A DNA stretch of 51,882 nucleotides, from NCBI GenBank assembly GCA_030527285.1, contig JAUNBC010000011.1:1-51882 (forward strand), written 5' to 3'. This document shows positions 1,403 to 40,523 of the stretch, in pieces. A model generated the notes under the pieces. The model searched no databases and was not told the origin of the DNA. It saw nothing but the letters and a program-made list of their open reading frames with translations. The position numbers and the translations under genes are program-made. The stretch's first letter is position 1; every line of letters starts with the position of its first letter. The stretch is from Bacillota bacterium. GTDB taxonomy: Bacteria; Bacillota; Dehalobacteriia; UBA4068.

Positions 1403-4123
1403 ATGAGCGGCAAAGTTTTATTGATCGACGGTTCCAGCCTACTGCATCGCGCTTTTTACGCTTTGCCGCTGCTGTCCAATCAGCAGGGTCAGTACGTCAA
1501 CGGCGTGCATGGCTTTATGATGATGCTCAACCGCCTGGTGGCGGAACGGCAGCCGCAGCATATCATCGTCTGCTTTGACAAAAGCCGCGTTACCTTCCGC
1601 AATCAGATCTACGCCGGGTACAAGGCGCAGCGCGCCGAAACGCCGCCCGAATTGCGCGGGCAATTCGAGACTTTGAAGCAGGTGCTGACGGCGGCGCATA
1701 TCGACTGGCGGGAGCTGGACGGCTATGAGGCCGACGATCTGCTGGGCAGCTATGCGCGGCTGGCCGTGGCGGAGGGTCTGCAAACGGAGATATTCTCCGG
1801 TGATAAGGATATATTTCAGCTGATCAACAAACAGGTCACGGTATTCATGACGCGCAAGGGCATCAGCGAGATCGAAGCATGGGACGAAGCGCGTTTTATC
1901 GGGCATTACGGCTTCGCTCCGGCCAAGATGACCGATTTCAAGGGGTTGATGGGCGATGCTTCCGATAATATTCCCGGCGTGCCCGGCGTGGGCGAGAAAA
2001 CGGCGCTCAAACTGATGGGCGAATTTGGCGATATCGACGGCGTATACGCTAATCTGATCAACGTCAGCGGCGATAAACTGCGGCAGAAGCTGCTGGAAAA
2101 CAAGCAGTTGGCCTATATCTCCAAGCAGTTGGCGACTATTGACTGCGCCGTGCCGCTGCAACCCGACTGGGCGGCCTGCGTCTATGATCCCGCCGCCGAT
2201 CTTGGCGAGCTGCGCGCGCTGTATAAGCAGCTGGGTCTGCGTCAGCTGCTGCGCGGCTTGAACAGCAACGAGCGGCCGTCGCTAACTCCCGCCGCCGTGA
2301 GCGCCGAAGAGGACGCGCCGTGGGGCGCGGAGGACGGCCCCGCCGCCAAAGCCGCTGATAAAACGCGCGCCGAAGCCAAAGCGGCCGGCGAAGCAGCGTC
2401 CGCCGTATGGCGGAACAGCGGCGAGCTGGAGACGCTGCTTACGGCCATCGAGGCCGAGCAAAGCTGCTCGCTGTACGCCGTCTGGCGCACGCCGGTGGTG
2501 GACGGCCAGCTCGAGTTTTTAGCCATCGGCTGTCCCGATCAGCCGCCATATGTGATAGATTTCAGCGACGAGGACGCCGAGCCGCGCTTGCAGCGCTGCA
2601 AACGGATGCTGGAGAATACGCGCATCGGCAAGATCACGGCGGCGGCCAAGGAGCTGCGGCTGCTGCTCAGGGCGCATGATATCGTCCTGGACGGCCTGCT
2701 GGACGACGTGCTGATCGCCGCCTATCTGCTGGACGCCAATGCCGGCGAGCCGCAACTGCTGCCGCTATTGCGGCAAAACGGCCTCGCTGCGGATATCGAG
2801 ACGCAAGCGCCGGCCGCGCAGGCCGCCGCCTGTGTCAAGCTGCTGCCGCAGTTGGCGGCGCTGCTGGATACGCGCATCGACGCGGCGACGATGGGCAAGC
2901 TCTATCGCGAGCTGGAGCTGCCGCTGACGTTGGTGCTGGCCGATATGGAGGCCGAGGGCATACGCGTGCGCGAGGAGGGGCTGCTGCAAATGTCGGAGCT
3001 GCTGCAAAAGCAGGCCGAGCAGTATCAGCAGCAGATATACGCCATCGCCGGCCATGAGTTCAATCTCAATTCGCCCAAACAGCTGGGCGTGGTCTTATTC
3101 GAGGAGCTGGGCTTGCCGCCGGCCAAGAAGACCAAGACCGGCTATTCTACCGACGCGGAAGTGCTGGAGGCGCTGGCCTTGCAGCATCCGATCGCGCAGC
3201 AGCTGCTCGATTACCGTCTGGCGGCTAAGCTGCGCTCCACCTATACGGAGGGGCTGCGTTATCTGATCAACCCGCGCACCGGCAAGCTGCATACCAGCTT
3301 CAAGCAGATGATCGCCGCTACCGGCCGCCTGTCCTCGGCGGAGCCTAATTTGCAAAATATACCGGTGCGCCATCCGCTGGGACGCAAGATCCGCGAGGTA
3401 TTTACCGCCGACGGCGAGGGTGATATGCTGCTGGCCATCGACTACAATCAGATCGAGCTGCGCGTGCTGGCGCATATTTCCGCCGACGAGGGCTTGATCG
3501 AGGCCTACCGCCGCGGCGAGGATATACATCTGCGCACCGCCTCCGAGGTGCTGGGCGTCAGTCCGGAGCAGATCACGCCGCTGCAAAGACGGCAGGCCAA
3601 GGCCGTCAATTTCGGTATCGTCTACGGCATCTCCGACTATGGGCTGTCGCGGGATATCGGGGTCAGCCGCAAGGAGGCCGCCGAGTACATCGCCCGTTAT
3701 TTCGCCCGCTATCCCGGCGTGGCCGCCTATCAGCGTGAGGTGGTGGCCGCCGCGCGCCGCGACGGTTACGTGAGCACGCTGATCAAACGCCGCCGCGCCC
3801 TGCCGGAGCTGATCAGCACCAACTATAACCTGCGCAGCTTTGCCGAGCGCATGGCGATCAATACGCCGATACAAGGCACAGCCGCCGATATCATCAAGAT
3901 CGCCATGCTTGACGTGGCGCGCGAGCTGAAGGCGCGCGGGCTGAGGACAAAGATGATATTGCAGGTGCATGACGAGCTGATCTTCAATATGCCGTCCGAG
4001 GAGGTCAAATCGGCGCCGCTGCTGCTCAAGGGGCTGATGGAAAAGGCGCTGCCGCTGAGCGTACCGCTGGTCGCCGAGGTCAAGATCGGCAAGGATTGGT
4101 ATAATATGGTGAAGATCGACTGA
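1403..4123 (+). CDS. polA: DNA polymerase I
   Basis: A 906-residue family-A polymerase for Okazaki-fragment maturation and repair synthesis. Residues 1 to about 290 form the 5'-3' exonuclease (starts VLLIDGSSLLHRAFYA, acidic metal-site motifs EADDLLG and GDASDNIPGVPGVGEKTA). An Ala-rich linker follows (about 300-335). The middle domain has the position of a 3'-5' exonuclease but lacks the Asp-x-Glu metal motif (it reads SLYAVWRT), so proofreading is probably absent. The polymerase domain carries motif A (DYNQIELR, Asp680), motif B (RRQAKAVNFGIVYG, about 728-741) and motif C (QVHDE, 854-858). The start is supported by GGGAGGT seven bases upstream. It leads a run with mutM and coaE, a common firmicute order. 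Confidence 0.97.
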   Translation: MSGKVLLIDGSSLLHRAFYALPLLSNQQGQYVNGVHGFMMMLNRLVAERQPQHIIVCFDKSRVTFRNQIYAGYKAQRAETPPELRGQFETLKQVLTAAHIDWRELDGYEADDLLGSYARLAVAEGLQTEIFSGDKDIFQLINKQVTVFMTRKGISEIEAWDEARFIGHYGFAPAKMTDFKGLMGDASDNIPGVPGVGEKTALKLMGEFGDIDGVYANLINVSGDKLRQKLLENKQLAYISKQLATIDCAVPLQPDWAACVYDPAADLGELRALYKQLGLRQLLRGLNSNERPSLTPAAVSAEEDAPWGAEDGPAAKAADKTRAEAKAAGEAASAVWRNSGELETLLTAIEAEQSCSLYAVWRTPVVDGQLEFLAIGCPDQPPYVIDFSDEDAEPRLQRCKRMLENTRIGKITAAAKELRLLLRAHDIVLDGLLDDVLIAAYLLDANAGEPQLLPLLRQNGLAADIETQAPAAQAAACVKLLPQLAALLDTRIDAATMGKLYRELELPLTLVLADMEAEGIRVREEGLLQMSELLQKQAEQYQQQIYAIAGHEFNLNSPKQLGVVLFEELGLPPAKKTKTGYSTDAEVLEALALQHPIAQQLLDYRLAAKLRSTYTEGLRYLINPRTGKLHTSFKQMIAATGRLSSAEPNLQNIPVRHPLGRKIREVFTADGEGDMLLAIDYNQIELRVLAHISADEGLIEAYRRGEDIHLRTASEVLGVSPEQITPLQRRQAKAVNFGIVYGISDYGLSRDIGVSRKEAAEYIARYFARYPGVAAYQREVVAAARRDGYVSTLIKRRRALPELISTNYNLRSFAERMAINTPIQGTAADIIKIAMLDVARELKARGLRTKMILQVHDELIFNMPSEEVKSAPLLLKGLMEKALPLSVPLVAEVKIGKDWYNMVKID

Positions 4124-4168
4124 TGAGAAACGCCTACGCTCTTGGAATAAACTTTACGCGAGGTAATG

Positions 4169-4993
4169 ATGCCGGAACTGCCGGAAATAGAAACCGTTAA
4201 ACGCACGCTGTCGCCGCATCTGCTGGGGCGGCGCATCGAGGGCGTCGAGCTGCGGCGCGCGGAGGTGGTCAAACATCCCGACGCCGGACAGTTCGCCGCC
4301 GCCTTGCGCGGGGCGTACATACAGGAGCTGGCGCGGCGCGGCAAATATCTGCTGATACGCCTGCAAAACGGCGCGACGCTGGCCGTACATCTGCGCATGA
4401 CCGGCCGCCTGCTATGCGTGGAGGCGGAGCGTCCGCTCAAAGCGCATACGCATCTGATCTTCCGCCTTGACGATGGGCGCGAATTGCGCTTTTCCGATAC
4501 GCGGCGTTTCGGCGGGCTGTGGCTGCTGCAAGCCGGCGAGCGGGATGACTGCACCGGTATGCACAAGCTGGGAGTGGAGCCGTTCGACGCGGTCTTTGGC
4601 GCGGAGTATTTGCAGCAGCGACTGGGACGGCGTAATATCAGCGTTAAGCAGGGCATACTCGATCAGAGCGTGCTGGCCGGTCTGGGCAATATCTATGCCG
4701 ACGAGGCTTGCTTTGCCGCGGCGCTACTGCCGCAAAAGTGCTGCCGCGAGCTGAGCGCCGGCGAATGGCAGGCGCTGGCGGCGGCGATACCGCCGATACT
4801 CGAGGCGGCCATTGCCAATAACGGCACGACTTTTTCCGATTATCTGGACGGCGAGGGGCGCGAGGGGCAGAATATGCCCTATCTGAACGTGTACGGACGC
4901 GGCGGCCAGCCCTGCCGTAATTGCGGCGCGGCGCTGGAAAAAACGCGCGTCGGCGGGCGCGGCACCGTCTATTGCCCGCATTGTCAGAAATAA
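4169..4993 (+). CDS. mutM: Formamidopyrimidine-DNA glycosylase
   Basis: A 274-residue base-excision repair glycosylase/AP lyase that removes 8-oxoguanine and Fapy lesions. Two adjacent ATG codons (4166 and 4169) are possible. The second is chosen because the catalytic N-terminal proline must follow the initiator Met directly (MPELPE, Pro2-Glu3) and because the GAGGT ribosome site is better spaced from it. The conserved lysine lies in RRGKYLL, and a C-terminal zinc finger has Cys249, Cys252, Cys269 and Cys272 with the catalytic Arg264 in GGRGT. It follows polA by about 45 bases and precedes coaE by 14. Confidence 0.97.
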   Translation: MPELPEIETVKRTLSPHLLGRRIEGVELRRAEVVKHPDAGQFAAALRGAYIQELARRGKYLLIRLQNGATLAVHLRMTGRLLCVEAERPLKAHTHLIFRLDDGRELRFSDTRRFGGLWLLQAGERDDCTGMHKLGVEPFDAVFGAEYLQQRLGRRNISVKQGILDQSVLAGLGNIYADEACFAAALLPQKCCRELSAGEWQALAAAIPPILEAAIANNGTTFSDYLDGEGREGQNMPYLNVYGRGGQPCRNCGAALEKTRVGGRGTVYCPHCQK

Positions 4994-5007
4994 CCAGGGA
5001 GCGGCTC

Positions 5008-5625
5008 ATGAGTATTATCGGCGTTACCGGCAATATCGGTTCCGGCAAATCATTGGCGGCGGCCTATTTGCAGCAATTCGGCGCGGCGCGTATCGACGCG
5101 GATATCATCGGCCATCAGCTATTGCGCAAAGGCGGCGCGGCCTATCAGCCGCTGCTGGAGCATTTCGGCGCGCGTATCTTAGCGGCGGATGGCGAGATCG
5201 ACCGGCGCAAGCTGGCGGCCATCGTTTTTGCCGCCGACGGGCGCGAGCAGCTGCAGCGGCTGAACGACGTCACTCATCCGCTGATACGCCGGCAGATCCA
5301 GGCCGAGATCGCGGCGGCGCAGCGGGACGGCTATCCGCATATCGTGCTCGAGGCGGCGCTGCTGTTGCAGGCCGGCTGGCGGCGGCAGGTCGATCAGGTG
5401 TGGCTGATCGTAGCGCCGGAGGCGGAATTAGTGCGGCGGGTGATGCTGCGCGATAACGTTGACGAACAGACGGCGCGGGCGCGGCTGGAGCGGCAGCTCA
5501 GCGAGCGGCAAATGCGCGCGCTGGCCGACCGGGTTTTCTGCAATGACGGCAGCCCCGAGCAGCTCAGGGAGGCCTTGTATGCCGCGTACAGCGAGCTTGA
5601 ACATAAGGAGAACAAAAATGGCTAA
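5008..5625 (+). CDS. coaE: Dephospho-CoA kinase
   Basis: A 205-residue P-loop kinase for the last step of coenzyme A synthesis (phosphorylation of the ribose 3'-OH of dephospho-CoA). The Walker A motif GNIGSGKS is at residues 8-15, followed by the family's DADIIGHQLL segment, where the Asp is catalytic, and by the lid region near RLERQLSERQM. A much longer in-frame extension exists upstream, but it lies inside mutM; the ATG at 5008, preceded by GGGAGCGG, gives the usual length. The stop overlaps the start of the following lytic transglycosylase by eight bases. Confidence 0.96.
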   Translation: MSIIGVTGNIGSGKSLAAAYLQQFGAARIDADIIGHQLLRKGGAAYQPLLEHFGARILAADGEIDRRKLAAIVFAADGREQLQRLNDVTHPLIRRQIQAEIAAAQRDGYPHIVLEAALLLQAGWRRQVDQVWLIVAPEAELVRRVMLRDNVDEQTARARLERQLSERQMRALADRVFCNDGSPEQLREALYAAYSELEHKENKNG

Positions 5626-6214
5626 GAAAATGCGTAAACGCGGGGGAATACTGTTGGCGATAGGCATAGTGTTATTGCTGTTGTTCGCGGCGGCGGTGTG
5701 GCAGCGGCAGGCGATATTCGAATACTTCTTCCCCATCGACCATCAGCAGCAGATCGAGGCGGTCTGCGAGGAGTATAACGCCGTCTTTGGCGCGAATATC
5801 GACCCATGGCTGGTCGCGGCGATCATCCGCGAGGAGAGCGCGTATGACGCGGCCGCCACTTCCCATGCCGGAGCCTGCGGCCTGATGCAGCTGATGCCCG
5901 ATACCGCCCAGTATATCATCGACGAGAGCGGGCTTGATATTACTGCGGAACAGGCGCTATGGCAGCCGGAATGGAATATAGCCTGCGGCGTATGGTATCT
6001 GTGCTATGTGGCGGAGAGCTATTTCGACGGCCGCATCTGGCCGGCGGTGGCCGCCTATAATGCCGGTCATAATAGGGTCGAGCAATGGCTGGAGGAGGGC
6101 ACATGGGATGGCAGCGCCGAGAGCTACGCCGATATACCCTATAATGAAACGGCGCGCTACCTGCGGCAGGTGCGGCTCAGCTACGAGGTCTATCAATTCC
6201 TCTATGACAGGTAG
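5618..6214 (+). CDS. Membrane-anchored lytic transglycosylase (Slt/SLT domain)
   Basis: A 198-residue protein with a basic N-terminus and one membrane segment (about residues 10-28), then a goose-lysozyme-like SLT domain. The catalytic glutamate is Glu73 in REES, followed by the family motifs GACGLMQLMP, AAYNAG and the late NETARYLRQV. These enzymes cleave peptidoglycan between MurNAc and GlcNAc to leave 1,6-anhydroMurNAc; the anchor places the domain outside the cytoplasmic membrane. Start at 5618 follows AAGGAG and overlaps coaE by eight bases, so the two are translationally coupled. A lytic transglycosylase directly behind coaE is a recurrent arrangement in Negativicutes and related clostridia. 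Confidence 0.92.
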   Translation: MAKKMRKRGGILLAIGIVLLLLFAAAVWQRQAIFEYFFPIDHQQQIEAVCEEYNAVFGANIDPWLVAAIIREESAYDAAATSHAGACGLMQLMPDTAQYIIDESGLDITAEQALWQPEWNIACGVWYLCYVAESYFDGRIWPAVAAYNAGHNRVEQWLEEGTWDGSAESYADIPYNETARYLRQVRLSYEVYQFLYDR

Positions 6215-6294
6215 CGGGCGCGGCAAAAAGAGGAAAACAGCCGCCAGCAGGGAATATATATAAGCCGAGAATAACGCCGAATGGATGTGAATTT

Positions 6295-7332
6295 ATGCGT
6301 GATATGTATGACGATCTGGATAAGGTGACAGCCTATCGCTGCGACGAGGATCGCGCCTATTGCGCGGCCGAGCATCAGGAGATCGCGCGCGGCTTGACCA
6401 CGGATATTTATTTTATCAAGACGATGCAGATACTCAGGCATATGGGCTTGGAAAAAACGCAGGTCACAGCCGAGATATTCGCCCGCCGTTCAGGCATTTT
6501 CGCCGGGCTGGCCGAGGCGATGAGCCTGCTCGCCGACAGCGAGGTCGAGATCTGGGCGCTGCCGGAGGGAAGCGCCTTTGAGAAAAAAGAGGTGCTGATG
6601 CGCATTTCCGGCCCCTATGAGCAGTTCGGTCTGTTTGAAACGCCGCTATTGGGCATTTTGGCCTCATCATCAGGCTGGGCTACCGCGGCGCATCAGATCA
6701 TGGAGGCGGCCGGCGATTGCCCGGTCACCGTATTCGGCGCGCGTCACGTGCATCCGGCGGTAGCGCCGGTAATGGAGCGCGCGGCGATCATCGGCGGGGT
6801 CGACGGCGCGTCCTGCGTCCTCGGAGCCAAGCTGGCCGGTATGGAGCCGGTGGGCACCGCGCCCCATGCGCTGTTCCTGATCGCCGGCGATACGGTCAAG
6901 GCCGCCATCGCCTATGATGAATGTATGCCGGAGAATTCGGCGCGATTGATATTGATAGACACCTTCAAGGACGAGGCCGAGGAGAGCTTGCGCGTGGCCG
7001 AGGCGATGAAGGGACATTTGGCGGGCGTGCGGCTGGATACGCCCTCCGAGCGCGGCGGCGTCGGCGTGGAGCTGGTGCGCGAGGTGCGGGCGCGGCTGGA
7101 TAGAGCCGGCTTCCCCGAGGTCAAGGTGTTCGTTTCCGGCGGCTTGACCCCGCAGCGGCTGATAGATTTGCGCGAGGCCGGTGCGCAGGCCTTCGGCGTT
7201 GGCTCCTATATTTCCGGCGCTTCGCCGATCGATATGACCATGGACCTCAAAGAGGTGGCGGGCGAGCCGGTAGCCAAGCGTGGCCGTATCCCCGGCATCA
7301 TCGAGAACGATAAGCTGATCCGGCAGAAGTAG
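6295..7332 (+). CDS. pncB: Nicotinate phosphoribosyltransferase
   Basis: A 345-residue enzyme of the short NAPRTase type. It joins nicotinate and PRPP to nicotinate mononucleotide in NAD salvage. Recognisable parts are the N-terminal region (GLTTDIYFIKT), the central FGARHVHPA segment, the GVDGASCVLGAKLAG stretch, and the C-terminal phosphate-binding loop (FVSGGLTPQRL ... AFGVGSYI). The ribosome site is weak (GGATG), and a second ATG three codons downstream is an alternative start. It stands alone between the transglycosylase and a terminator. Confidence 0.9.
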   Translation: MRDMYDDLDKVTAYRCDEDRAYCAAEHQEIARGLTTDIYFIKTMQILRHMGLEKTQVTAEIFARRSGIFAGLAEAMSLLADSEVEIWALPEGSAFEKKEVLMRISGPYEQFGLFETPLLGILASSSGWATAAHQIMEAAGDCPVTVFGARHVHPAVAPVMERAAIIGGVDGASCVLGAKLAGMEPVGTAPHALFLIAGDTVKAAIAYDECMPENSARLILIDTFKDEAEESLRVAEAMKGHLAGVRLDTPSERGGVGVELVREVRARLDRAGFPEVKVFVSGGLTPQRLIDLREAGAQAFGVGSYISGASPIDMTMDLKEVAGEPVAKRGRIPGIIENDKLIRQK

Positions 7333-7361
7333 GCGGCCGGCCGGCAGGTCAACGTAGAATC

Positions 7362-7391
7362 AGCGCGCCAGACTAAAGCCGGCGCGCTTTT
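7362..7391 (+). terminator. Rho-independent terminator after pncB
   Basis: AGCGCGCC (7362-7369) pairs with GGCGCGCT (7381-7388) across an 11-base loop, followed by TTTT. Confidence 0.75.
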
Positions 7392-7436
7392 GCTTGCAGC
7401 GAGGCAGCCTGCCGCGGCTCGTGTCGGGAGACGATG

Positions 7437-8288
7437 ATGAAAGAGAAACGAAAAAAGATGATATGTATAGTTGCAGCCGTGCTGCTCCTTGCTTTATGTA
7501 TCGTCGCCTTATGGCCGGGGCTCGTTGTCAGACGCTACGAAGAATACAGCGGCAAGCTGCATGAGAGCGTCCGGCTGGCGGTTTTGGCCGACCTGCACAG
7601 CGGCTTTTATGGCGAGCGCCAGGAAAAGCTGCTGGCGGCCATTGCCGAGCAGTCGCCGGACGCTGTTTTGCTGGTGGGCGATATCGTGGATGACAAAAAG
7701 TCGAGAGACGGCGCGGAGCTGCTGATTTCCGCGCTTGGCGACGCATACCCCTGCTATTATGTGAGCGGCAATCATGAGGCGTGGAGCGAGGACGCGCAGG
7801 GGATCAAGGAGCTGCTCCGCGGCTATGGCGTCACGGTGCTGGAGGGCGATACGGAGCGGCTGTCCGTAAACGGGCAAGTCATCCTGATCGGCGGCGTTGA
7901 CGATCCCGCCTGCTTTGACCAGCGCTACGCCTATGGCGATACGGACGGCTCGTGGGCGGAGCAGTATGCCGCCTGCGTGGCGGCGCAGGAGGAGCATATC
8001 TATTCCGTGCTGCTATCCCATCGTCCGGAGCTGACGGCGCAGTATAGCGACAGCGGCTTCGACCTGGTGCTGGCCGGTCATGCGCATGGCGGACAGGTGC
8101 GCATACCCGGTATCTTGAACGGGCTGCTCGCGCCCAATCAAGGCCTGTTCCCCCGCTATGCGGGCGGACGCTATCAGCTGGGCGGCACAACGCTCATCGT
8201 CAGTCGCGGACTTGCGCGCAACTGGATACCGCGCGTGTTTAACCGGCCGGAGCTGGTCATTGTTGATTTGCTGCCGCAGGTGAAATAA
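7437..8288 (+). CDS. Membrane-anchored metallophosphoesterase (YkuE-like)
   Basis: A 283-residue calcineurin-like phosphoesterase with one N-terminal membrane segment (about residues 8-27). The five metal motifs are in order: LADLHSG (Asp52, His54), VGDIVDD, GNHEAW, LSHRPE and GHAHGGQ. YkuE-type proteins are dinuclear metal enzymes; related LpxH-like enzymes cleave UDP-diacylglucosamine, but the substrate here cannot be assigned. Two adjacent ATGs (7434, 7437) exist; the second is better spaced from GGGAG at 7426-7430. It appears to be a single-gene unit between the pncB terminator and the repeat region. Confidence 0.88.
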   Translation: MKEKRKKMICIVAAVLLLALCIVALWPGLVVRRYEEYSGKLHESVRLAVLADLHSGFYGERQEKLLAAIAEQSPDAVLLVGDIVDDKKSRDGAELLISALGDAYPCYYVSGNHEAWSEDAQGIKELLRGYGVTVLEGDTERLSVNGQVILIGGVDDPACFDQRYAYGDTDGSWAEQYAACVAAQEEHIYSVLLSHRPELTAQYSDSGFDLVLAGHAHGGQVRIPGILNGLLAPNQGLFPRYAGGRYQLGGTTLIVSRGLARNWIPRVFNRPELVIVDLLPQVK

Positions 8289-8436: not shown

Positions 8437-8494
8437 TGATCAAACATACCACAAAGAAATACCCGCCAAAAAAATCGTGGCGGGTTTTTTTATG
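8437..8494 (-). repeat. Truncated, chimeric copy of the tRNA-3'-end repeat; also works as a + strand terminator
   Basis: TGATCAAACATACCAC at 8437-8452 is identical to the left-end block of the two full repeats (8765-8780, 8905-8920). It is followed by a hairpin (ACCCGCC 8461-8467 with GGCGGGT 8479-8485, then T7). One flank of the hairpin matches the hairpin at 8776-8819 and the other (ATCGTGGCGGGTTTTTT) matches the one at 8916-8962, so it looks like a recombinant of two copies. There is no tRNA 3' end next to it. For the + strand phosphoesterase it would act as a terminator. Confidence 0.75.
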
Positions 8495-8553
8495 CCATTC
8501 GCAAACAAAAAGATATCAGCTGCAATGACGGTCATATAGAGTCAGGGGGAGCT

Positions 8554-8635
8554 CGAGGGGGCGGAGCCCCGCTCGAAGTAAAATACATCGCCGCCGCCCG
8601 CGCAGCGGGCAGGATTGGCCGCACAGCGGCAAATC
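8554..8635. repeat. Cluster of three short GC-rich hairpins
   Basis: Three consecutive palindromes: CGAG-GGGGC/GCCCC-G-CTCG at 8554-8575, GCCCGC/GCGGGC at 8596-8610, and GATT-g-GCCGC/GCGGC-a-AATC at 8613-8635. They lie beyond the distal end of the tRNA-associated repeat array and no gene covers them. This may be another structured repeat; the function is unknown. Confidence 0.6.
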
Positions 8636-8647
8636 CGCGGCGAAAGA

Positions 8648-8675
8648 AAGAGACCGGCATAAGCCGGTCTCTTTC
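8648..8675 (-). terminator. Hairpin at the distal end of the tRNA-Leu repeat array
   Basis: GAAAGAGACCGGC pairs with GCCGGTCTCTTTC (13 bp, TTAT loop on the minus strand) directly after the CCA of the distal tRNA-3'-end copy, followed on the minus strand by TTTCG. It is a plausible final terminator of the tRNA transcript. Confidence 0.65.
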
Positions 8676-8780
8676 TGGTGCGGTAGATGGGACTTCCCTG
8701 CGGGCCGGGTTCGCCGACTAAACGATGCCCGCCGGGCATCAGTCGACGAACCTTCAAGTCCCTCTGATCAAACATACCAC
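8676..8780 (-). repeat. tRNA-3'-end repeat, distal copy (105-bp identical block)
   Basis: This block is identical over 105 bp to 8816-8920; the period is 140 bp. In minus-strand orientation it reads: ATGTTTGATCA left block; an outer stem GGGACTT/AAGTCCC (pair at 8756-8762 and 8689-8695); a 12-bp middle stem; a 7-bp inner hairpin; then the last 20 nt of the tRNA-Leu gene including CCA (8676-8695). The left arm GGGACTTGAA is the reverse complement of the tRNA's T-loop and T-stem. Confidence 0.9.
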
Positions 8781-8819
8781 AAAGAAATACCCGCCAAAAA
8801 GCGGGTATTTCTTTGTGGT
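8776..8819 (-). terminator. Perfect 19-bp hairpin between the two repeat copies
   Basis: ACCACAAAGAAATACCCGC (8776-8794) and its exact complement at 8801-8819 flank a six-base loop. On the minus strand the stem starts with the ACCA of the tRNA-3'-end copy and ends in TGGT. It resembles the hairpin behind the true tRNA gene but has a different stem sequence. Confidence 0.8.
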
Positions 8820-8920
8820 GCGGTAGATGGGACTTCCCTGCGGGCCGGGTTCGCCGACTAAACGATGCCCGCCGGGCATCAGTCGACGAACCTTCAAGTC
8901 CCTCTGATCAAACATACCAC
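8816..8920 (-). repeat. tRNA-3'-end repeat, tRNA-proximal copy
   Basis: Second full copy of the 105-bp block. Outer stem 8829-8835 with 8896-8902; middle stem 8848-8859 with 8881-8892 (12 bp, one wobble); inner hairpin 8864-8870 with 8874-8880; unpaired AAAC at 8860-8863. The copy of the tRNA-Leu 3' end is at 8816-8835 and starts 143 bp from the equivalent base of the true gene (8959). Confidence 0.9.
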
Positions 8921-8962
8921 ATAAAAAACCCACCGAAAATCGTGGCGGGTTTTTTATGTGGT
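8916..8962 (-). terminator. CCA-embedding hairpin after tRNA-Leu
   Basis: A 19-bp stem (8944-8962 with 8916-8934) starts on the minus strand with the discriminator base and CCA of the tRNA (ACCACATAAAA...) and ends in TGGT. Its single mismatch is A-C on the plus strand but G-U in the minus-strand RNA, which fits a selected minus-strand RNA hairpin. It probably ends or processes the tRNA transcript. Confidence 0.8.
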
Positions 8963-9043
8963 GCGGTAGATGGGACTTGAACCCATACGCCTTGCGACAT
9001 ACGCCCCTCAAACGTACCTGTCTGCCAATTCCAGCACTACCGC
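8959..9043 (-). tRNA. tRNA-Leu (anticodon GAG)
   Basis: The reverse strand folds as a class II tRNA: acceptor GCGGTAG/CTACCGC, D region with GGAATTGGCAGAC, anticodon stem TACGT/GCGTA with loop TTGAGGG (anticodon GAG, reads CUC/CUU), a long variable arm, T-arm ATGGG-TTCAAGT-CCCAT, discriminator A and an encoded CCA (8959-8961). Its 3' end is copied twice downstream in the repeats. Confidence 0.95.
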
Positions 9044-39539: not shown

Positions 39540-39751
39540 TGGCGCTGTTTGATAAGGAGCGGCCGCAGCCGGTATCGTTCAGAGATCGAGAGCTGGTATG
39601 TCCGGTTTGCGGCAATACCTTATTTTTCGAGCGCTCCACGCAGCTCAATACCACCGGCATGACCTTTCTCGGCCTTGATTGGGCTAACGCCTCGGCGCAT
39701 AATTATTTTTGCAGCGATTGCGGGTATATGTTCTGGTTTCACCCGCTCTGA
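39539..39751 (+). CDS. Small zinc-ribbon protein between smpB and ssrA
   Basis: A 70-residue protein with CxxC pairs at Cys21/Cys24 and Cys58/Cys61, likely one zinc ribbon. It shares an overall plan with the 63-residue ribbon at 11425 (both have a long loop and a CSDCG second knuckle). Its ATG overlaps the smpB stop codon by one base, so it is translationally coupled to smpB. Function unknown; a link to ribosome rescue is only suggested by position. Confidence 0.8.
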   Translation: MALFDKERPQPVSFRDRELVCPVCGNTLFFERSTQLNTTGMTFLGLDWANASAHNYFCSDCGYMFWFHPL

Positions 39752-39831
39752 TTGCAGCGGAACAAATTGCCGCCGCTATCCGTCCAAGCAGTATCGGCGT
39801 AGGTATGCTGTTGAGTGTGTCAAATCTCCAT

Positions 39832-40180
39832 GGGGCTGAATCAGTTTCGACGGGGGAGGTATTGGCAAGAGAAGCGAGCCGGTGTTCCATCAGACCGTAA
39901 ATCGTTGGAAACTTTTTATTTGCCAAACCGAATTACGCTTTAGCAGCTTAATTGCTGTCTAACCCAGTTGCGGCTTTGCTCGTAGGGCCGTATCTGGGTC
40001 ATCAATACGAGCTTACTGCGGCGGGAGCTTCCCGACCCGCTGCGGGACATTCAAGGGAATGGCAAGGCCGCAGGCTGTTTGTAGCCGTCGGCTGAGCGAG
40101 AGCTAAATTACAAACTGCGCTCGGAGACGCTCTTGTGGATCCTTTTTCGGACGGGGGTGCAACTCCCCCCAGCTCCACCA
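39832..40180 (+). ncRNA. ssrA: tmRNA (ssrA)
   Basis: 349 nt. The 5' end GGGGCTGAATCAGTTTCGAC pairs with CAGCTCC near the 3' end to form the acceptor stem; the T-arm is GGGGG-TGCAACT-CCCCC, followed by discriminator A and encoded CCA (40178-40180). The tag frame at 39922-39951 reads AKPNYALAA then TAA, so the added tag is (A)AKPNYALAA. The last 21 nt (40160-40180) are repeated exactly at 40298-40318. Confidence 0.96.
39922..39951 (+). other. tmRNA proteolysis-tag reading frame
   Basis: GCC AAA CCG AAT TAC GCT TTA GCA GCT TAA encodes AKPNYALAA; the resume codon GCC is inferred by alignment with the usual ...NYALAA tags. Confidence 0.85.
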
Positions 40181-40220
40181 AAACTAATGCCCCTGCAGTA
40201 GCAGGGGCATTAGTTTTGGT
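40177..40220 (+). terminator. CCA-embedding hairpin after ssrA
   Basis: A perfect 20-bp stem (40177-40196 with 40201-40220, loop AGTA) begins with the ACCA of the tmRNA and ends in TTTTGGT. It has the same design as the hairpin behind tRNA-Leu. Confidence 0.85.
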
Positions 40221-40318
40221 AGCTTAAATCAAGGAGTTGCACGGGCAAAACCGCGCCGCCGGGGGCGGAAGCAGCGGTTTTCCCCCGCGCCGAAGGCCAA
40301 CTCCCCCCAGCTCCACCA
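40181..40318 (+). repeat. tmRNA-3'-end repeat: structured element ending in a copy of the ssrA 3' end
   Basis: Unit of 138 bp between equivalent bases of the two ssrA 3' ends. After the hairpin there is TTAAATCA, an outer stem GGAGTTG/CAACTCC (40233-40239 with 40298-40304), a middle stem AAAACCGC/GCGGTTTT (40247-40254 with 40274-40281), an inner hairpin CCGCC/GGCGG (40256-40260, 40264-40268), an unpaired AAGCA on the 3' side, then the 21-nt copy of the tmRNA end. GGAGTTGCA is the reverse complement of the tmRNA T-loop/T-stem. Confidence 0.85.
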
Positions 40319-40332
40319 ATAATCCCTACCAG

Positions 40333-40373
40333 AAATCCCCCCTGCTAAATGCGGTGATGCAGGGGGGATTTTT
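40333..40373 (+). terminator. Rho-independent terminator at the end of the ssrA repeat
   Basis: AAATCCCCCCTGC (40333-40345) pairs with GCAGGGGGGATTT (40359-40371), 13 bp, followed by T. Confidence 0.9.
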
Positions 40374-40379
40374 CTATTG

Positions 40380-40400
40380 AGTACACACAAAAGTACACAC
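40380..40400. repeat. Two direct copies of AGTACACAC
   Basis: AGTACACAC occurs at 40380-40388 and 40392-40400, right at the junction between the ssrA terminator and the following Crp/hcp segment. The rest of 40401-40523 shows only a GC hairpin (GGCGGCGC/GCGCCGCC, 40439-40459) and no gene. Confidence 0.5.
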
Positions 40401-40523
40401 TTTTTTTATAATGCCGGCGTAAACTTGGTCGAGCAGGTGGCGGCGCGTTTTGCGCCGCCGTTGACATGGGTGTTCGGCTCTGCTTGTTCTGTTAATCAAA
40501 TACCGCTTTTCATAAGACAGCCG

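Follow-up and report, generated by a model that had tools for sequence, protein, structure and literature searches.

Short structured repeats behind ssrA and tRNA genes: candidate folded-DNA units anchored at tRNA 3' ends

The window analysed here, a 51,882-nucleotide stretch of DNA from a Bacillota bacterium (Dehalobacteriia, UBA4068; GCA_030527285.1, contig JAUNBC010000011.1), carries on its plus strand the tmRNA gene ssrA (39832-40180; ARAGORN; Rfam RF00023, 160.4 bits) with the tag AKPNYALAA. Directly behind it, sequence reading, a repeat search and folding delimit a unit of 138 bp (40181-40318, plus strand) that contains no gene, hence no integrase gene, and is present as a single copy in this genome. 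The unit opens with a terminator-like hairpin whose stem is extended by ACCA and TGGT of the tmRNA end (40177-40220), and continues with GGAGTTGCA (40233-40241), the reverse complement of the tmRNA T-loop/T-stem sequence TGCAACTCC, of which 40233-40239 provides the 5' strand of an outer stem. The folds then place a middle stem, AAAACCGC/GCGGTTTT, around an inner hairpin CCGCC(GGG)GGCGG (40247-40281), followed by a mini-hairpin GCC(GAA)GGC with a C(GNA)G triloop (40289-40297), a loop class enriched across the family. The unit closes on 21 nt that repeat the tmRNA 3' end exactly, CCA included (CAACTCCCCCCAGCTCCACCA; 40298-40318, identical to 40160-40180). Both the direct copy and the inverted left arm are thus as the sequence-only reading of this DNA had described them.

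Folded as single-stranded DNA, the whole unit reaches z = -7.95, which none of 200 shuffles equalled, and as RNA z -5.1; the elements are the terminator hairpin (40181-40216) with its ACCA/TGGT flanks, the 7-bp outer stem, the middle hairpin and the small C(GAA)G hairpin. This strong fold is owed mostly to the terminator hairpin, as the body without it gives z -2.2 (DNA) and -0.4 (RNA), so that the body fold rests on comparison and not on the single sequence. A nucleotide search of phages and plasmids with the ssrA unit returned no match, and among 398 genomes of the phylum ssrA units were present in this genome only. A 61-bp stretch further on (40365-40425; GAGTACACAYAAAAGTACACAC), 90% identical to 1226-1285 of locus L018, lies 3' of both the ssrA and the Ala-CGC arrays.

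The same plan, by sequence and folds, occurs twice on the minus strand behind tRNA-Leu(GAG) (gene call, 8959-9043), in Leu unit 1 (8816-8958) and Leu unit 2 (8676-8815). By sequence comparison, the Leu terminator block occurs a third time at 8437-8490 (minus), as a chimeric copy with TGGTATGTTTGATCA, after which chromosomal sequence follows. The interruption of this array (8490-8675, minus) shares both its ends, 35 bp at 94% and 119 bp at 76%, with an interruption of a tRNA-Val array elsewhere in the genome (locus L106, about 1967-4030); one interruption is gene-free and the other holds an ABC-F gene.

A covariance model built from four units of other bacteria (gut units) and the Glu unit of this genome, with the Leu units absent from it, matched both Leu units at their exact ends (8829-8902 and 8689-8762; 29.5 bits each, E 0.003 for 0.75 Mb on both strands). 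A wider model scored them at 47.8 bits, a value that is not independent because they are within its alignment. The ssrA unit was found neither by the first model in a normal search nor by the wider model across the whole window; with filters off, on a stretch of 501 bases, the first model gave 14.7 bits at 40233-40304, its best match there. It therefore matches the family model only weakly, and the earlier proposal that ssrA and Leu units share one fold is supported by the model in the case of Leu and by architecture in that of ssrA. The accompanying proposal that stems are kept by compensatory change fared better. In 22 distinct matches, 94.9% of cells were paired and double changes occurred at 26 of 30 pairs (0/500 shuffles), with double changes in 124 cells where shuffles gave 32.9, and slid structures collapsed. 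Fitting the alignment to the structure biases these counts towards it, and related rows count repeatedly; despite this, the gap between the counts and the slid controls is large. A CGGCC linker and the triloops are common to units across phyla.

Within this genome, copies of a gene's own tail (its last 14 nt, up to 2 mismatches) lay no more than 400 nt downstream of 12 of the 40 tRNA and tmRNA genes found and read, compared with 22/1396 for the tails of other genes and 0/40 for upstream regions, in agreement with the idea of a family matched to its host RNA genes beyond chance. The positives were ssrA, Gly-CCC, Gly-TCC, Val-CAC, Ala-CGC, Pro-CGG, Arg-ACG, Val-GAC, Glu-CTC, Leu-GAG, Ser-GGA and Ser-CGA. 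The expectation of units of 135-145 bp at other tRNA genes was borne out for some classes only, as unit length varies by class from about 100 to 190 bp. At Val-CAC and Pro-CGG the copies lie about 250 nt off and lack an inverted arm; they are probably something other than these units and may be island remnants. The Gly and Val-GAC units have no clear inverted T-arm. Bodies fall into Gly/Val, Ser/Ala, Glu, Leu, ssrA and Arg classes, and the Ala body recurs at Ser-GGA (90%) and Ser-CGA (94%), with a terminator and a tail copy that belong in each case to the local gene.

Several features around these arrays are recorded here as observations. The tRNA-Val(GAC) array (L106, G000:C34:24000-36000, 1647-7612) encloses a gene for an ABC-F type ATPase and an iron-siderophore-like ABC transporter operon, flanked on both sides by units and terminator copies, like cargo inside the array. 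The assembly, 82% complete, comprises 40 contigs, and several of them terminate within or beside tRNA genes or unit arrays, probably because of these repeats, and the Ser-GGA array seems to cross a contig break (L108/L109, at the ends of contigs C31 and C4 of this genome, G000). Another repeat (AACGTATTAAAATCCGAACGC...GATCAAGCGCTGATC) lies 3' of tRNA-Arg(TCT) and tRNA-Lys(TTT), with part of it also behind the Glu array (L006, L005, L027).

The repeat type extends far beyond this genome. A pattern for one common T-arm sequence (a tRNA end with TTCGAATCCC, a spacer, TGG, a spacer and GGGATTCGAA) matched at least 119 loci across bacterial genomes, compared with a rough chance expectation of about 5. 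Although the pattern does not require it, a tail copy with 0-2 mismatches followed the inverted arm at no fewer than 67 of these loci, mostly 40-130 nt further on, giving them a common order of tRNA end, spacer or terminator, inverted T-arm, structured body and tRNA-end copy. Units of this plan are 100-210 bp long, with a hairpin body and a direct copy of 16-23 nt of the gene's 3' end. Among the matches listed were Collinsella and other Coriobacteriia, Clostridia, Oscillospiraceae, Gammaproteobacteria, Nitrospira, Verrucomicrobia, Actinobacteria, Dadabacteria and Parcubacteria. Convergent tRNA pairs, which were set aside, accounted for 17/72 of the pattern rows that lacked a copy close by.

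Two further whole genomes were read with no inverted arm demanded. Collinsella sp. An7 had own-tail copies at 4/43 tRNAs (Gln, Ala, Val and Leu; control 19/1652), and the genome of locus L206 had them in 9/43 rows (control 30/1636), 7 of them clear and two, Met and a mis-called Gln, doubtful. In these genomes the inverted arm tracks the local T-arm even off-pattern, with CAGGGACTTGAACCT at Leu and CCCAGGGTTCGAACCT at Gln, and in genome G102 one body is common to Ser, Arg and Gln units that carry local arms. No such units occurred in relatives within the class, whose Leu-GAG ends (0/15) and ssrA ends (0/17) carried no tail copy and are thus empty orthologous sites. Matches to the Gly-class body in four relatives (G004, G008, G010 and G017) were rejected as dispersed hairpins, with no tRNA in the stretch examined. 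A viral-classed contig (L235, IMGVR_UViG_3300018495_003362, about 698-804, minus) holds a unit whose tail copy has one mismatch; a short tandem repeat of the tail comes after it. Each of two tRNA-Glu genes at locus L207, separated by about 2.9 kb, has a unit or array, and the ORFs across these units, which would encode proline/arginine-rich proteins, are probably spurious.

The only named case of this repeat type that we found is RtT (rttR; RF00391) of E. coli tyrT. It too lies directly 3' of a tRNA, in tandem and in variable number; within it the T-stem/acceptor side recurs in inverted orientation (GGGGAAGGAT), it has C(GCA)G and C(GAA)G hairpins, and its end, AATCCTTCCCCCACCACCA, equals the tRNA 3' end; the window units share the position directly behind a tRNA or tRNA-like gene and the closing copy of its 3' end. 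Because RtT has the same grammar, the family is not wholly undescribed, contrary to what the sequence-only reading had supposed. Window-unit bodies nevertheless differ from RtT in sequence and branching, and up to 12 genes, ssrA among them, are affected in this genome. The Rfam RtT model scored E. coli units at 133-137 bits and exceeded its cut-off behind tRNA-Ser in two non-E. coli records (L194, 51.0 bits; L206, 46.3 bits), and it had no window match at gathering (45 bits) and none at E<=5 on 39700-40500. The shared grammar without a model match suggests, at the level of sequence, that the window units are a different variant of the same kind and not members of RtT. Our literature search on RtT, tRNA-end repeats and similar elements returned nothing relevant, although subscription papers lay outside it, making this weak evidence of novelty.

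RtT units also differ in number between E. coli strains. RtT-like sequence occurs in 4708 of 5426 complete E. coli genomes, at 1-10 places each, leaving about 13% with no detectable unit, and annotated units in the tyrT region number from 0 to 5 in the rows listed. In FDAARGOS_497 both tRNA-Tyr genes run directly into the flank with no unit, whereas OkiPb01695, which has a single tRNA-Tyr gene here, has exactly one unit and one tail copy before a flank of the FDAARGOS_497 type; a unit was thus gained or lost exactly between tail copies. Recombination at an attachment site would predict such precision, as would homologous loss between direct repeats, and the E. coli states could reflect tandem expansion and loss between direct repeats.

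RttR is annotated as a noncoding RNA that spans exactly one E. coli unit and is noted as processed from the tyrT transcript, which raises the best-surviving alternative, that the units give rise to a small structured RNA. Read-through of the terminator and tRNA-like 3' processing would then yield a CCA-ended unit RNA with a regulatory or decoy role, which is what has been claimed for RttR. In its favour, the tail copy and the terminator that follows it supply the same 3' processing signals, and folding is specific to one strand, the tRNA sense strand. The composition of the stems and loops points elsewhere. G-T pairs made up 9 of 555 standard pairs in the units (1.6%) compared with 458/6538 (7%) in 288 tRNAs of the same loci, in cells that are not independent, and 5/244 in the RtT-like group; in unconstrained MFE folds their share was 4.0% in units, 10.4% in tRNAs and 10.7% in shuffles. 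C(GNA)G triloops, which are exceptionally stable in single-stranded DNA, made up 18.6% of hairpin loops (0.5% shuffled) and C(NGN)G 19.5% (2.3% shuffled), the reverse complement of GNA accounted for 0% of unit hairpin loops, and UNCG loops were absent. The scarcity of G-T pairs and the triloop types favour folded DNA on the sense strand over RNA structure; they are not proof, and perfect stems could arise by hairpin-templated correction without any function. With a terminator-like hairpin at the start of each unit here, and any function being dispensable in the E. coli genomes that lack a detectable unit, we consider the RNA explanation unlikely, while giving it more weight than any other alternative.

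A passive origin seems to us less probable still. tRNA ends and terminators would have been duplicated by slippage or template switching at hairpins, with inverted arms and perfect stems as fold-back artefacts, a process that suits the tandem arrays of variable copy number, the chimeric terminator at Leu and the adjacency of the inverted T-arm to a hairpin. Local slippage alone would not be expected to conserve body structure and loop types across phyla, to yield a common CGGCC linker and triloops, or to put one body at different tRNAs. Shrunken remains of tRNA-integrating islands or prophages, retained as harmless, would explain the shared target from T-arm to CCA and the genes (ABC-F, siderophore ABC operon) inside the Val array, but are very improbable given structure-conserving evolution over many phyla, which remnants lacking a common fold would not display, and the lack of a linked integrase; no unit found here had the ends of an element that carries an integrase.

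Taking together the common plan, its spread over many genes and phyla, the compensated stems and the precise empty sites and copy-number changes in E. coli, we favour, with a probability of about 0.5, the reading that the ssrA and Leu units represent a widespread tRNA-end repeat made of short integrating and excising folded-DNA units anchored at tRNA 3' ends. Such units would exist as DNA, folded on the strand of the tRNA sense sequence, and recombination at the tRNA 3' end would let them enter, leave or multiply; that end would act as an attachment site, restored each time so that the RNA gene stays functional. The travelling part would be the body, with the two arms matching the local gene. 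The enzyme may be a host factor or an unlinked recombinase. The 82%-complete assembly contains two tyrosine recombinases only, XerC-like (beside an HslV-like ORF) and XerD-like (before a phosphopentomutase-like ORF); searches of it revealed no integron integrase or other non-Xer integrase, no IS110 transposase (PF01548), one marginal Y1 transposase match at a contig edge (35 positions, 23.1 bits) and no recombinase linked to units. A more far-reaching version, in which the units form a class of gene-free bacterial mobile DNA with a one-strand fold like that of attC, an attachment site from T-arm to CCA and arms rewritten locally, E. coli RtT being a domesticated member, is a speculative possibility.

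Among known systems, integron attC sites and cassettes provide one parallel: they are hairpin DNA of variable sequence and conserved structure, with short outer arms, unit arrays and a site-specific joint, and the units resemble them in their variable sequence with conserved hairpin structure, short outer arms and arrays. Unlike attC, the units lack RYYYAAC/GTTRRRY arms, having instead arms (GGAGTTG/CAACTCC and GGGACTT/AAGTCCC) that are tRNA T-arm sequence, form a three-way junction, are mostly gene-free and were seen with no integron integrase. Attachment sites of prophages and ICEs at tRNA 3' ends also restore the RNA gene through a direct repeat that runs from the T-loop to CCA, but the units are 100-210 bp, gene-free and equipped with conserved hairpins. 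REP/BIME elements with RAYT, and IS200/IS605, likewise involve small repeats that form hairpins and may fold on a single DNA strand, but they are not tied to tRNA ends. The closest counterpart, RtT, is annotated for a single E. coli operon, as a regulatory RNA. That its plan recurs in many phyla, behind many tRNAs and behind ssrA, with DNA-like stems and with precise empty sites in E. coli, recasts RtT as a general element, one that may also account for breaks in assemblies and clustered repeats at tRNA genes and whose mode of insertion becomes testable in a laboratory strain.
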